The notes under the pieces are model-generated. The model saw only the letters and a list, made by a program, of their open reading frames with translations, ran no database searches and was not told where the DNA came from. This document shows, in pieces, positions 18,959-23,748 of a stretch of DNA of 64,000 bases. Positions within the stretch are counted from its first letter, which is position 1. The number at the start of each line of letters is the position of its first letter. The position numbers and the translations under genes were made by a program. Origin of the DNA: Gemmatimonadaceae bacterium (GTDB lineage Bacteria > Gemmatimonadota > Gemmatimonadetes > Gemmatimonadales > Gemmatimonadaceae); NCBI GenBank assembly GCA_025934775.1, contig JAICWO010000010.1:124001-188000 (forward strand). Direction: 5' to 3'.

Positions 18959-20623
18959 CTATTTCGACAGCGCGAACTGGAACGGCATCTGGACGAGCTG
19001 CTTGACCGCCTTGCCGCCCACCTGCGCGGGATAGAACCGCATCTTGGGCAGCGCGTGCTTCAGCGACTGCGTGAACAGGTCGTGGGTCGATTTGAGAACT
19101 TTGAACGTCGCCATGTCGGCATAGCCGGAGGTGTCGACCGTGAACTGGGCGAGCACCTCGCCTTCGATGTGCGCGGCGCGCAGCATGTCGGGATATCGCG
19201 GGGCCACATTCCCGGGGTACGGCTGCACCGCCCGTTCGACCTGGAACTCGAAGTACGTCTGGTTGTCGTCCACGTGCGTCGGCGCAATGCCTGCCCGCTG
19301 CATGCGAACCGGTGCCGGCGCGCGCTGCGCCGCGGCCGCTGGCGCATCGGGACGCAGCGGCGTCCCGAGCGCGGTCTTGCTGAGTGAGAACTCGAACGGC
19401 ATCTGCACGACCTGCTTGACCGGCCGATTTCCGACCAATGCCGGTGCGAACTTCATCGTCGCGAGCGACTGCCGCACCGCGGCCGTGAACAGATCGTGCG
19501 TCGAGCGCAGCACTTTGAAGGTGCGCATGTCCACCGTGCTGTCCGGGTCCACCACGAACTGCGCGAGCACTTCGCCCTGGATGTTCGCGCTCCGCAGCAG
19601 ATCCGGGTATCGCGGCGCCGTGCTGCCCGTGATCGGGTGCGCCGTGTTCTCGACTTGAAATTCGTAGTACGTCTGATTCGGTGCCTTCGACGGCGTCGCC
19701 TTCGGACCGGGCGCCGTTGGATTTTCCGTCTGGAGCGAGCACGCGAGGGCGAGCGCGCCGGTGGCGACGAGCACGCCGCCGATCATGCTCGCGCGCACGA
19801 GCCGTTGCGTCGAGCGTTGCATGGCGAGAATCCTCCGTTCGAGTTGACTCGTGGGTTCGGAGAGCATGGGAGCGAAGAGCGTGGGCGCGATCCCGCGCCG
19901 CTGCGCGATCGTGAGCATCAACAGCCCGTAGCGCTCGGGCGTGGGATGCGCCCGCAGCACGCGCGCGTCGCAGTCCATCTCGATCGCGAGCCGCAGCCGA
20001 CGCACGCAGTACCAGAGCGCCACGTTCCACGGCATGAGCGCCGCCGCCAACGCCGCGATGAACAACAGCAGCGGATCGCGCGCGCTGCGATGCTCCTCTT
20101 CGTGCCGCAGCACGAGCGCGCGGAGCGGCGCGTCGAGCGCGAGCGTCCACTCGGGGAGCACCACGTCCATCGCGTGCAGCCCGATCACCGCCGGGCCGAC
20201 GTTGTTGGAGATTCGTACGTGCGCGCCGTCAACCACGCGTGAGGGCCAGTCGCGGCGCGAGCGGCGCAGCGCGATGAGCCCCGTGACCAGCCGCCCGACG
20301 AGCAGCAGCGAGAGCGCGATCCACGCCACGAGCAGCCCACGATCCACGACCGCGGTCAGCGCGGCGCGCAGCGACTGATCGCCCACCACCCGCATCGGCT
20401 GCACCGTGACGGCCCACGGCACAAACGTGGCCGGCGCCGCCGCCTTCGGCAGCAACCGCCGCACGACGTCCGTCAAGGGCCACGCGATCGTCGCGAGCAC
20501 AGCGCCGAACCACACCAGCCGCCGCGCCCAACCGCGCGCTTCCGCCACGCGATCCATCGCCAGCGCCGCGATCGCGACCAGCGCACCGACGAGCGCGGCA
20601 TACGACATCCATGAAGCGATCAT
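18959..20623 (-). CDS. M56 (BlaR1-type) membrane metalloprotease with two tandem TonB-C domains
   Basis: A 554-residue signal-transducing protease. The N-terminal part has helices at about 5-22, 35-52, 95-115 and 190-210 and the M56 zinc motif HEEEH (RHEEEHRSARDP) with the distal acidic segment AIEMDCDARVLRAHP. After a further hydrophobic segment (GGVLVATGALALACS) come two TonB C-terminal-like domains, residues about 315-415 and 460-554, roughly two-thirds identical to each other (APRYPDLLRSANIQGEVLAQF versus APRYPDMLRAAHIEGEVLAQF). Its ATG overlaps the BlaI stop (ATGA), a typical blaI-blaR1 arrangement. In that relay the membrane protease inactivates BlaI on a signal; no penicillin-binding sensor domain is present, so the signal is unknown. 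Confidence 0.9.
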   Translation of the reverse strand: MIASWMSYAALVGALVAIAALAMDRVAEARGWARRLVWFGAVLATIAWPLTDVVRRLLPKAAAPATFVPWAVTVQPMRVVGDQSLRAALTAVVDRGLLVAWIALSLLLVGRLVTGLIALRRSRRDWPSRVVDGAHVRISNNVGPAVIGLHAMDVVLPEWTLALDAPLRALVLRHEEEHRSARDPLLLFIAALAAALMPWNVALWYCVRRLRLAIEMDCDARVLRAHPTPERYGLLMLTIAQRRGIAPTLFAPMLSEPTSQLERRILAMQRSTQRLVRASMIGGVLVATGALALACSLQTENPTAPGPKATPSKAPNQTYYEFQVENTAHPITGSTAPRYPDLLRSANIQGEVLAQFVVDPDSTVDMRTFKVLRSTHDLFTAAVRQSLATMKFAPALVGNRPVKQVVQMPFEFSLSKTALGTPLRPDAPAAAAQRAPAPVRMQRAGIAPTHVDDNQTYFEFQVERAVQPYPGNVAPRYPDMLRAAHIEGEVLAQFTVDTSGYADMATFKVLKSTHDLFTQSLKHALPKMRFYPAQVGGKAVKQLVQMPFQFALSK

Positions 20624-21027
20624 CGCCGTCCTCCTTTCTTGCCTGGTGGCACCTTGCCTGGTGGCGTCTTGCTCGGCGCGAGCAGCTTCCGCAGCCGGCG
20701 CATGTCGTCCGCCGAGAGCGACTCGTCTTCCACGAGTTGCGCGATGAGCTGCTCCGGCGATCCGTGAAACAGCTTGTCGACGATGCGCGTGAGCGCGCTC
20801 CGGCGCGCCGCGCGCCGCGCGATCTTGGGGTGATAGCGGTGCGCCTTCCCCTCGGCGGTGTGCGACACGAGCTCCTTCGCCTCGAGATTGCGCAGGATCG
20901 TGAGCACGGTGGTGTACGCGAGATCCGCCGGCAGTCGGTCGCGCACCTCGGCGACCGTCCCGCTGCCCAGATCCCAGAGCACGCCCATCACGTCCAGCTC
21001 GCGATCGCCCAGCACGAATTCACCCAT
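20620..21027 (-). CDS. BlaI/MecI/CopY-family transcriptional repressor
   Basis: A 135-residue winged-helix repressor. GDRELDVMGVLWDLGSGTV and the recognition region LAYTTVLTILRNLEAKELV are diagnostic of the BlaI (Penicillinase_R) family, followed by the wing HTAEGKAHRYHP and a dimerisation helix set. The C-terminal tail PSKTPPGKVPPGKKGGRR is basic and low-complexity. It heads an operon with the M56 protease. A palindrome just upstream (21039-21060) is the obvious operator and would control both this operon and the divergent PIG-L gene. Confidence 0.93.
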   Translation of the reverse strand: MGEFVLGDRELDVMGVLWDLGSGTVAEVRDRLPADLAYTTVLTILRNLEAKELVSHTAEGKAHRYHPKIARRAARRSALTRIVDKLFHGSPEQLIAQLVEDESLSADDMRRLRKLLAPSKTPPGKVPPGKKGGRR

Positions 21028-21038
21028 GGCTCTGGCCT

Positions 21039-21060
21039 TTCTACTAAGGTGGTAGTAGAA
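21039..21060. promoter_or_regulatory. Candidate BlaI operator palindrome
   Basis: An inverted repeat with 8-bp perfect arms, TTCTACTA - 6 bp - TAGTAGAA, lies 12 bp upstream of the blaI start and 27 bp upstream of the PIG-L start. Its size and dyad form match BlaI/MecI-type operators. The position lets one repressor dimer shut both divergent transcripts. This is inferred from context. Confidence 0.7.
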
Positions 21061-21087
21061 TAAGCCCCGATTGCGACCCTGTCAACT

Positions 21088-23748
21088 ATGAGCATAGCAG
21101 ATCGCCGTTCCGCGCTCCGCCAAACCGTTCTCGCGGCAGCCGGCCTCGTCCTCGCCGCCGCCGTGCGGCTTGGCGCCCAGACGCCGGACGCCATTCAACT
21201 GAAAGGCCTCGTCGACGGGCTCACGGTCACGCCGCGCGTGCTCTTCGTGGCGCTCCGACCCGGCGACGAGAATCTGCCGCTCGTTGCGTGGCTCTCGCGC
21301 GCGCGCCACGTCCAGACCGGCGTACTCTCGCTCACGCGCGGCGAGTCCGCCCCCAACGTCGTCGGGCCCGAGACCGGAATCGCGCTTGGCGCGATTCGCG
21401 TCGAGGAAGCGCTCGCCGCGCGCCGCATCGACGGCGCCGAACAGTTCTTCACGCGCGATTACGATTTTGGCATCGCGCGCGATACCCTGGATGTCTTCAG
21501 GCAGTGGGATCGCGACTCGCTCGTGGGCGACATCGTCACCGTGATCCGCTCGTTCCGGCCGCAAGTCGTCATTACGGAATCCTCTATAGGAACCGAGAAA
21601 CTCGATCCGGAGCTCCAGGTGTTGGCGTCGGTCGCGCGGGACGCATTCGATGCCGCGAACGATTTCCGGCGCTTCCCATTCCAGCGCTTCGGCCCGGGTT
21701 GGCGGCCGAGCAAGCTGTATCGCTATGGCCCGGGGCTCGCCATCGCGACCGACGCGTACGATCCAACCATGGGCCGCACGTACGCCGACCTCGCGCTCGA
21801 CGCGCGCGCGGAGTATCGCTCTCGCGGGCTCGCGAGCGCCGCGCCGCCGCGATCGACGAGCGATCTCGAGCTCGTCGTGCCTGCTCGCTCCGACACCGCC
21901 GTGCGCGAGCAGTCGATCTTCGACGGCGTCGACACCACGTTCATGCCGCTCGGTGCGTACGCGCCGACGACGGTCGCGAGCGCACTGCCGCTGATGATCG
22001 CGTACGCCGATTCGGCGCGGCGCGCCTTCGACATCAACGACTTCGCGGCGGTGGTGGCGCCGCTCGCCCGGTTCGCGCAGCTCGCGACGCGCGCGCGCGG
22101 CGAGCTCGCCTGGTGCCGCCACGCCGCGTTGAGCGCGATGCCGCTCGAGGTGCCGGGCCGCGCGTGCAGCGTCAACACACTCGATCTCGATGCCGCGATC
22201 GATCTCGTTCGACAGCGCGCGACGACGGCGCTCCTGGCCGCCGCCCGCGTGACCGTCGATGCGACGTCGGACCGCGAGCTCGTCGCGCAGTCCGACACCG
22301 GCGTGGTGACCGTTGCGATCGCGAATCATGGCACGCTCCCCATCACGCTCCGCGACGTCTCCGTCTGGGGGAGCATGGACCGCGATTCGGTTGCGATCGT
22401 GATTCCGCCCGACAGTGCGGCCCACGTGATGCGCACCGTCGCCGGCCTCGCGAGCCCGCATCCGTGGTGGATTCAGAATCGATCGCACGGCCGCTTTCCC
22501 GACGCGCTCTCCGCCGCCGACGGTATCGATCGCGCGGGGCTGATCCCTTCGAACCTCACGGTGCCAGGTGTCGCGGTGCCGGAGAACATTCGCCGAGCCA
22601 GCGACGCGAGCGTGACGCTCACCATCGCCGGCGCCACGGTGAGCACGAGCGTCGGCCCCGTCGTGTTCCCATACGCCGATGCCGTCGTCGGCGTGCAGCG
22701 CCGAGCGATCGCCGGCGTGCCGGACGTGTCGCTGCGCTTCGAGCGGGGCCTCCAGTGGATTCCCGAGCACACGAACGTGAAGCGCAACCTGCGGCTGTTC
22801 GTGAGCTCCGCGTCCGATCACGAGCGCTCGTTCACGCCGAAGCCGTACGCGCCCAAGAGCGTGACGATTGACTCCGCCCCGAAGCGGGTGACGCTCGCGC
22901 CCCACGAAGCACGCGATATGGTGTTGAAGATGCGCTCGCGCATGGACAGCACGGAGCGGCACGAATTCGGACTGCCCGGCGTCTTCAGCCAGAGCGGCGC
23001 GTACACGACCGGGTTTCGGACGATTCAGTATTCCTACCTGCCTCCGATCCGGCTGGAGGGGAGCGCTGGCTTCTGGCTGCAGTCCGTGGAGATCCGCGTG
23101 CCGCCCGGGGTGGTGGTCGGGTACGTGGGACTGAACGACGACATCGCCTCAGCGCTCGAGGACGTCGGCGTGCCGCTCGCCGTGATCAAACCCGAAGATC
23201 TGCTCTACGCCGATCTCTCAAAGGTGAACGCGCTCCTCTTCGCGCCGCGCGCCTTCGAAGTCCATCCCGATCTCCTGTCGCAGAGCAGGCGCATTCTCGA
23301 TTTCGTGCGCGGCGGCGGCACCGTCGTCGTGCTTCGCGGTGAGTACGCGACGCTGCAGTCGCGGCTGATGCCATATCCCGTGGCGACGTCGCGGCCGCTG
23401 CCGGCGTACATCACGCAGCCGGACGCCGCGGTCTCGGTCGTCGCGCCCGCCTCGCGGCTGCTCGCGTGGCCCAACGCGATCGGCGACGCGGATTGGAAGG
23501 AATGGGTGAGCGGCCGCGCGCTGTTCGTGCCCACCACCGCCGATCCGCGCTACACGCGCGTGATCGGCCTCGCCGATCCGGGGCAATCAGTAAACAATAA
23601 TTCTATTTTGATCACGAGGCTCGGCAAGGGCGCGTTCGTGTACACGGCGCTCACGCTCGATCAGCAGATCGACGGCGGCGTGCCGGGGGCGCTGCGCTTG
23701 CTCGTGAACCTGCTCGGCGCCGGCGCGATCAGTCCTGCTGCGCGATGA
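21088..23748 (+). CDS. PIG-L deacetylase-family secreted protein, apparently catalytically dead
   Basis: An 886-residue protein with a signal peptide (TVLAAAGLVLAAAVRLGAQ) and a PIG-L-type domain at about residues 45-200: WLSRARHVQTGVLSLTRGE, ALGAIRVEEALAARRIDGAEQ and FFTRDYDFG match the large exported PIG-L group. The zinc motif AHPDDE is replaced by ALRPGDEN, and the usual downstream His pair (GHGHHQ-like) is replaced by IGTEKLDPEL, so the metal site appears lost. The rest holds Ig-like/NEW3-like regions and a C-terminal GATase1-like domain (KVNALLFAPRAFEVH, ILDFVRGGGTVVVLRGEY). It faces blaI across a shared operator. The role is probably binding or regulatory rather than hydrolytic. Confidence 0.82.
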   Translation: MSIADRRSALRQTVLAAAGLVLAAAVRLGAQTPDAIQLKGLVDGLTVTPRVLFVALRPGDENLPLVAWLSRARHVQTGVLSLTRGESAPNVVGPETGIALGAIRVEEALAARRIDGAEQFFTRDYDFGIARDTLDVFRQWDRDSLVGDIVTVIRSFRPQVVITESSIGTEKLDPELQVLASVARDAFDAANDFRRFPFQRFGPGWRPSKLYRYGPGLAIATDAYDPTMGRTYADLALDARAEYRSRGLASAAPPRSTSDLELVVPARSDTAVREQSIFDGVDTTFMPLGAYAPTTVASALPLMIAYADSARRAFDINDFAAVVAPLARFAQLATRARGELAWCRHAALSAMPLEVPGRACSVNTLDLDAAIDLVRQRATTALLAAARVTVDATSDRELVAQSDTGVVTVAIANHGTLPITLRDVSVWGSMDRDSVAIVIPPDSAAHVMRTVAGLASPHPWWIQNRSHGRFPDALSAADGIDRAGLIPSNLTVPGVAVPENIRRASDASVTLTIAGATVSTSVGPVVFPYADAVVGVQRRAIAGVPDVSLRFERGLQWIPEHTNVKRNLRLFVSSASDHERSFTPKPYAPKSVTIDSAPKRVTLAPHEARDMVLKMRSRMDSTERHEFGLPGVFSQSGAYTTGFRTIQYSYLPPIRLEGSAGFWLQSVEIRVPPGVVVGYVGLNDDIASALEDVGVPLAVIKPEDLLYADLSKVNALLFAPRAFEVHPDLLSQSRRILDFVRGGGTVVVLRGEYATLQSRLMPYPVATSRPLPAYITQPDAAVSVVAPASRLLAWPNAIGDADWKEWVSGRALFVPTTADPRYTRVIGLADPGQSVNNNSILITRLGKGAFVYTALTLDQQIDGGVPGALRLLVNLLGAGAISPAAR

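Follow-up and report, generated by a model that had tools for sequence, protein, structure and literature searches.

The window analyzed here, a 64,000-nucleotide stretch of a Gemmatimonadaceae draft genome (G000; 4.88 Mb in 47 contigs), contains a large PIG-L family gene with a degenerate zinc site that stands divergently from a blaI-type repressor gene. This arrangement raises the question of what a PIG-L protein might be kept for once its metal site has been rebuilt, and when the cell would make it. We consider it probable that the gene encodes a maintained, BlaI-repressed, secreted and non-catalytic PIG-L pseudoenzyme.

Architecture of the window PIG-L protein

The gene and the parts of its product are as follows.

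21088–23748, plus strand: degenerate PIG-L gene, 886 aa, ATG start (ORF call)
21223–21939, plus strand: PIG-L/LmbE domain, residues 46–284 (VIA-align to LnmX 5bmo_A and MshB 1q74_D; Pfam match at residues 71–168)
21250–21273, plus strand: degenerate metal motif ALRPGDEN, residues 55–62 (alignment to MshB and relatives)
21604–21615, plus strand: degenerate His pair, Asp173/Leu176 (alignment to MshB and relatives)
22249–23067, plus strand: middle region, mostly β-strand, residues about 388–660 (AF2 secondary structure; boundaries by eye)
23104–23736, plus strand: C-terminal domain with a ThuA-like/glutamine-amidotransferase-like fold, residues 673–883 (VIA-align)

The single Pfam match of the protein is PF02585 (PIG-L), which scores 35.5 bits over a cut-off of 28.2 and bears out the retained family signature described in the initial annotation. 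The AF2 model, built on an alignment of 81 sequences (pLDDT 92.2, pTM 0.92), was compared with known folds using VIA-align. Residues 46–266 match LnmX (5bmo_A, Z 19.7) and residues 47–283 match MshB (1q74_D, Z 19.4), and fold and family score together place the protein with the LmbE-like/PIG-L zinc hydrolases. The C-terminal part matches 2gk3_E (Z 17.2, residues 673–882) and the ThuA-like 1t0b_A (Z 16.2, residues 673–883), while most of the middle region is barely covered by these comparisons. A hydrophobic, signal-like segment is seen by eye at the N-terminus, and the protein is probably secreted. Taken as modeled, it would comprise a PIG-L domain, a beta-rich middle and a ThuA-like C-terminal domain, as a paralog of the large Gemmatimonadota PIG-L proteins. 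Two other assignments were set aside: the NCBIfam models Mca, MshB and BshB1 score far under their cut-offs, and a PDB search with the single window sequence gave weak matches to phage cI repressors (best E 0.13).

Lost and retained active-site residues

The LmbE/PIG-L superfamily is treated as one of metal-dependent enzymes. Those characterized to date have an HXDD + H metal motif in common; in MshB, Asp15 is the general base, and Arg68, Asp95 and His144 are probably involved in substrate binding (PMC4101496, in the portion available). Residues were mapped by aligning a profile built from 81 relatives with the PDB entry for MshB. In this alignment MshB His13, Asp15 and Asp16 become Arg57, Gly59 and Asp60, and His144 and His147 become Asp173 and Leu176, so that R-P-G-D and Leu176 stand in place of the metal motif and general base. 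The degenerate motif and the replaced His pair first noted from the sequence are both confirmed against 157 typed relatives, 142 of which read HPDDE plus both later His residues. The accompanying description of a protein without zinc ligands is right for two of the three (the His13 and His147 equivalents); the third, Asp60 (MshB Asp16), is retained. Position 243 is Tyr, where all 142 intact relatives have His.

The substrate contacts are split. Arg104 and Asp126 preserve MshB Arg68 and Asp95, whereas the His144 counterpart is gone, which leaves the earlier suggestion of sugar binding with only indirect support. Near the His pair the model has pLDDT values of 74 (residues 161–170) and 87 (residues 171–180), against 93 and 95 in the matching blocks within residues 151–170 of the canonical paralog. 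A salt-bridge network may replace zinc in the degenerate proteins. Compared with MshB and the LmbE-like zinc deacetylases, the window protein thus shares the Rossmann-like PIG-L fold and the Asp16, Arg68 and Asp95 equivalents; it differs in lacking those of His13, Asp15, His144 and His147, and in being far larger, with its beta-rich and ThuA-like parts and its signal-like segment (by eye). At the sequence level, the initial proposal that catalysis was lost and the fold kept is well supported by the model confidence, the Z scores of about 19 to MshB and LnmX, codon constraint and the degenerate orthologs found elsewhere.

Distribution and phylogeny of degenerate PIG-L genes

Searches for the large PIG-L family gave matches in 169 of the 179 genomes from the window's family (E up to 1e-30) and, across the phylum, in 348 of the 395 genomes sampled (E up to 1e-60). 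In a named collection, 76 of the best 80 of at least 525 relatives' loci carry Gemmatimonadota-type titles. The window's own genome has six PIG-L domain matches altogether and one other full-length homolog (L002, contig C35) with intact HPDDE and HxxH equivalents. This canonical paralog is similar in length to the window protein and aligns with it over the full length at 33–35% identity; unlike it, L002 has HPDDE and DGHGQH intact.

For typing, 248 ORFs were reduced to 158 domains distinct over a 135-residue core, and removal of a motif-less fragment left 157. Over an 80-residue core, 147 of the 157 remain distinct; the ten that drop out are all intact, and there are further near-identical pairs. 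The intact HPDDE..H..H pattern is found in 142 of the 157. One or more metal ligands are missing in twelve, which belong to two groups, B1 (the window gene, L003, L004, L152, L153 and L093) and B2 (L154, L147, L162, L160, L156 and L158). The His144 equivalent is lost with the ligands kept in L084 and L129 (both B1) and in one L164 gene, in which E17 has also become Asp. Every typed domain, including the 15 degenerate ones, retains the Asp16 equivalent. Outside the window's family, 20 strong-match genes were fetched; all 18 that could be typed by a simple pattern are HPDDE, with DGHG in 17 and a variant in the other.

Proteins of sufficient length (112 of 114) were used for a tree; once intact rows more than 66% identical to a retained one had been removed, 62 rows were left. 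On this tree the 15 degenerate genes need three changes: B1 (n = 8, including the window gene; SH-aLRT 93), B2 (n = 6; SH-aLRT 100) and the single L164 gene. A 28-row tree gives support of 87/84 for B1 and 100/100 for B2, and an AU test rejects B1 and B2 as one clade (p-AU 0.0214; 28 rows, LG+G4; groups named after the first tree). The B2 clade is therefore strongly supported and B1 moderately so; B1 nests among intact genes.

The replacements recur across the two groups. The His144 equivalent is Asp or Asn in all 14 proteins (8/8 in B1) and Asp in 13 of them. In all six B2 proteins Arg replaces both His13 and His147, and Asp replaces His144; this replacement pattern, RP[ED]DE..D..R, is itself conserved in 6/6. 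In B1, His13 is gone in five and His147 in five, with Arg at the former position in 4/8 and at the latter in 3/8; L003 and L152 carry the same three replacements as B2. Since L084 and L129 keep the ligands and L004 keeps HPDDE, loss within B1 looks stepwise, rather than ancient and fixed throughout the clade. Orthologs with the standard motif, which the initial annotation would have counted against a pseudoenzyme, thus exist in part: L084 and L129 have the full set of metal ligands and are possibly active, and L004 has HPDDE but Asp at His147.

Gene order around the PIG-L gene is common to the window genome and G014, and other degenerate pairs have only a few neighbor clusters in common (e.g., L154/L156 and L084/L129). 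In G016, two large PIG-L genes lie in tandem (L164, 4717–9971), of which the downstream copy has lost the His144 equivalent. Beside intact PIG-L genes, L170 and L164 have neighbor clusters 2, 24, 25 and 26 in common, one of which we take to resemble 2-oxoglutarate dehydrogenase E1.

Constraint on the degenerate genes

Between the window gene and its closest ortholog, in G014, codon positions 1, 2 and 3 of the PIG-L domain differ at 0.339, 0.296 and 0.506 of sites. The order 3>1>2 holds in 11/11 pairs tested and in all three regions of the protein (the C-terminal figures with the G014 gene include a shifted tail), which argues that the gene is constrained. Residue conservation was also assessed across B1 and B2, where 14/14 proteins keep Arg84, Gly85, Glu107, Arg112, Asp115, Gln119 and Asp126, and 13/14 keep Arg104. 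Both marks of a pseudoenzyme, loss of catalytic residues and continued constraint on the gene, are thus present at the sequence level.

The excess of identity in the PIG-L domain over the middle region is 0.05–0.12 in seven degenerate pairs versus 0.21–0.30 in four canonical ones. The domain of the window gene appears to be relaxed, its special conservation lost, and this agrees with the loss of both catalysis and substrate binding. In G014, the last ~65 residues of the closest ortholog are read in another frame (L166, 9905–10102), which reflects either a mistake in the assembly or a genuine break.

The blaI/M56 locus and its operator-like dyads

Upstream of the PIG-L gene, the window contains the following features.

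18959–20623, minus strand: M56 (BlaR1-type) peptidase with TonB_C domains, presumed antirepressor (Pfam)
20620–21027, minus strand: blaI-type repressor, PF03965, divergent from the PIG-L gene (Pfam)
21041–21058, no strand: dyad O2, CTACTA-N6-TAGTAG, 18 bp, operator-like (motif scan)
21057–21085, minus strand: predicted sigma-70 promoter of blaI, TTGACA-N17-TATTCT (one found versus a mean of 0.1 in shuffles)
21083–21100, minus strand: dyad O1, CTGCTA-N6-TAGTTG, operator-like and weaker, on the blaI −35 box and the PIG-L start codon

O2, between the PIG-L gene and the divergent blaI/M56 genes, is the only such site in the draft genome at up to one mismatch. Both dyads are present at the syntenic G014 locus, where these operator islands are conserved and much of the surrounding DNA differs. 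Promoter prediction in the intergenic region returned no plus-strand promoter for the PIG-L gene. In the M56 peptidase, the TonB_C domains lie in two stretches, and Pfam reports no penicillin-binding sensor domain.

The locus resembles BlaI/BlaR1 (MecI/MecR1) systems: the gene has a PF03965 repressor and an M56 peptidase as neighbors, and the blaI promoter carries two operator-like dyads, one covering the −35 box and the other close to the −10. It differs in a target other than a beta-lactamase, in the TonB_C domains of its peptidase and in its operator-like sequence. The BlaI/MecI operator is TACA/TGTA in the available part of a CopY operator paper (PMC7253601), which also warns against taking palindromes as operators without binding tests; the window dyad is CTACTA-N6-TAGTAG. 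An operator-like site in a promoter region shared by blaI and other members, as in a BlaI regulon, is present. From sequence alone, we infer that BlaI probably controls the pseudoenzyme gene.

Dyads were sought in 18 genomes (those of the window genus, carriers of degenerate genes and G031) and found in 14, including sites before blaI in related genomes. In 20 stretches around other dyad sites, blaI and/or M56 adjoins the site in 13, and 10 of these 13 have two dyads 41–53 bp apart; the remaining 7 contain neither gene, and some of their sites lie inside genes. For the PIG-L genes, we scanned up to 480 bp before the His13 column of the alignment, allowing up to one mismatch in the TAGTAG or TAGTTG form. 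A dyad lies upstream of 6 of the 15 degenerate genes and of none of the 130 intact ones (Fisher p 4.3e-7, ignoring kinship; two genes with short flanks dropped), the canonical paralog L002 among the latter, and the intact count stays at zero even at two mismatches. A recognizable dyad is absent from this span in the other 9 degenerate genes.

The six dyad-bearing genes are those of the window, G014, G042 and G102 (B1), G083 (B2) and G016 (the L164 gene, where the dyad overlaps a TTGACA), and so span all three lineages. Within the six genomes of the window genus, 4/4 degenerate genes found carry it. In G042, G102, G083 and G016 the dyad lies 21–76 nt before the assigned start, with no BlaI/M56 homolog in the stretch examined, and none of the window's type occurs within 9–20 kb around the 13 degenerate genes other than those of the window and G014. 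The blaI locus itself can lack the PIG-L gene: helicase, neighbor gene and blaI are adjacent in G042 and G095 with no PIG-L gene between, as are neighbor gene and blaI in G083 (a stretch without the helicase). Since G042 and G083 have degenerate PIG-L genes elsewhere, each with its own dyad, gene and dyad co-occur at different positions, as might result from joint movement or repeated acquisition.

Alternative explanations

If the window gene were a decaying paralog becoming a pseudogene, its active-site substitutions would be neutral. The lost extra conservation of the PIG-L domain, the frame change near the end of the G014 ortholog and the unlike substitutions in the window, G014 and G042 genes would all agree with this. 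We nonetheless find decay improbable, as 886 codons are open, the 3>1>2 order extends over all three regions in 11/11 pairs (G014 C-terminal figures with the shifted tail), Asp16 is kept in 15/15 degenerate proteins and seven further residues in all of B1 and B2, the B2 replacement is invariant in pattern, and the operator islands are shared by G000 and G014. It is also unlikely that the protein is an active enzyme that uses Asp60, Asp173 or other groups in a changed metal site or for different chemistry. Asp60 and Asp173 are left as possible ligands, H144D recurs in 13/14 proteins, and the hydratase GalB (5cgz, Z 18.2) is an example of other chemistry on the PIG-L fold; against this, Arg57 brings a guanidinium to where a metal ligand would be, His147 and the general base have become Leu and Gly, and the loop before the His pair is modeled less confidently than in the canonical paralog (74/87 versus 93/95).

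The dyad may instead serve blaI only, leaving the PIG-L gene a bystander of a shared intergenic region. The blaI promoter would by itself account for O1 and O2 in the window, the plus-strand promoter is not predicted, and the G042, G095 and G083 blaI loci do without a PIG-L gene. What weighs against a bystander, to which we give little credence, is that the degenerate genes of G042, G102, G083 and G016 bear the dyad away from any BlaI/M56 homolog in the stretch examined, and that the dyad precedes none of 130 intact genes.

Proposed function as a pseudoenzyme

Under the preferred reading of a BlaI-repressed, secreted pseudoenzyme, a BlaI dimer on the dyad would repress blaI-M56 and the pseudoenzyme gene. 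The M56-TonB membrane peptidase would sense a signal and cause removal of BlaI, whereupon the pseudoenzyme would be made and exported. The changed pocket of the protein, in which Arg and Asp side chains take the place of zinc, would bind a sugar-like or other ligand without hydrolyzing it, and the exported protein would serve as a scaffold, receptor or sequestering protein. Among possible roles, that of a non-catalytic binder is the most likely reading. Metallopeptidase-family pseudopeptidases offer a parallel, having lost zinc ligands and general base with the fold kept, and some are secreted binders; they belong to unrelated fold families, and the available part of that source does not mention PIG-L (PMC11266112).

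A wider proposal is possible but doubtful: that in Gemmatimonadaceae secreted PIG-L deacetylases have become non-catalytic in two or more separate lineages and have started to do so in another, that the B1 and B2 zinc sites were rebuilt in parallel, and that several of the genes, at different chromosomal positions, are placed under a BlaI/M56 stress-sensing switch, their products being inducible binders that capture or report an amino-sugar ligand, for instance envelope fragments or an amino-sugar antibiotic. If true, inducible amino-sugar binders would be a new effector class for BlaI systems. Constrained pseudoenzyme lineages in which Arg/Asp took over the metal site in parallel would demonstrate that the PIG-L fold can serve without catalysis, and the present data suggest that BlaI/M56 systems in Gemmatimonadota control secreted proteins other than beta-lactamases. 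The BlaI-type dyad offers a direct handle: from it follow predictions of when the protein is produced and of the repressor whose removal would reveal it. A literature search, with most subscription papers outside it, gave no match for PIG-L pseudoenzyme, catalytically inactive LmbE or Gemmatimonadota LmbE, and a broader search gave nothing on PIG-L pseudoenzymes among the matches listed; given that coverage, the gap proves no novelty.

Additional operator-like sites

A second operator-like type, CTACGG..., with CAGTTGACA, is found upstream of blaI paralogs in L320, L323, L324, L327 and L335, which suggests several BlaI specificities in one genome; one pattern of this type gave no match upstream of PIG-L genes. 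In G102, two one-mismatch dyads stand in direct tandem within about 40 nt before the degenerate gene (L153). Elsewhere in the same genome (L302, contig C156), a perfect dyad at 996–1013 lies 16 bp before a gene that is esterase-like by eye, a possible further member of the regulon.
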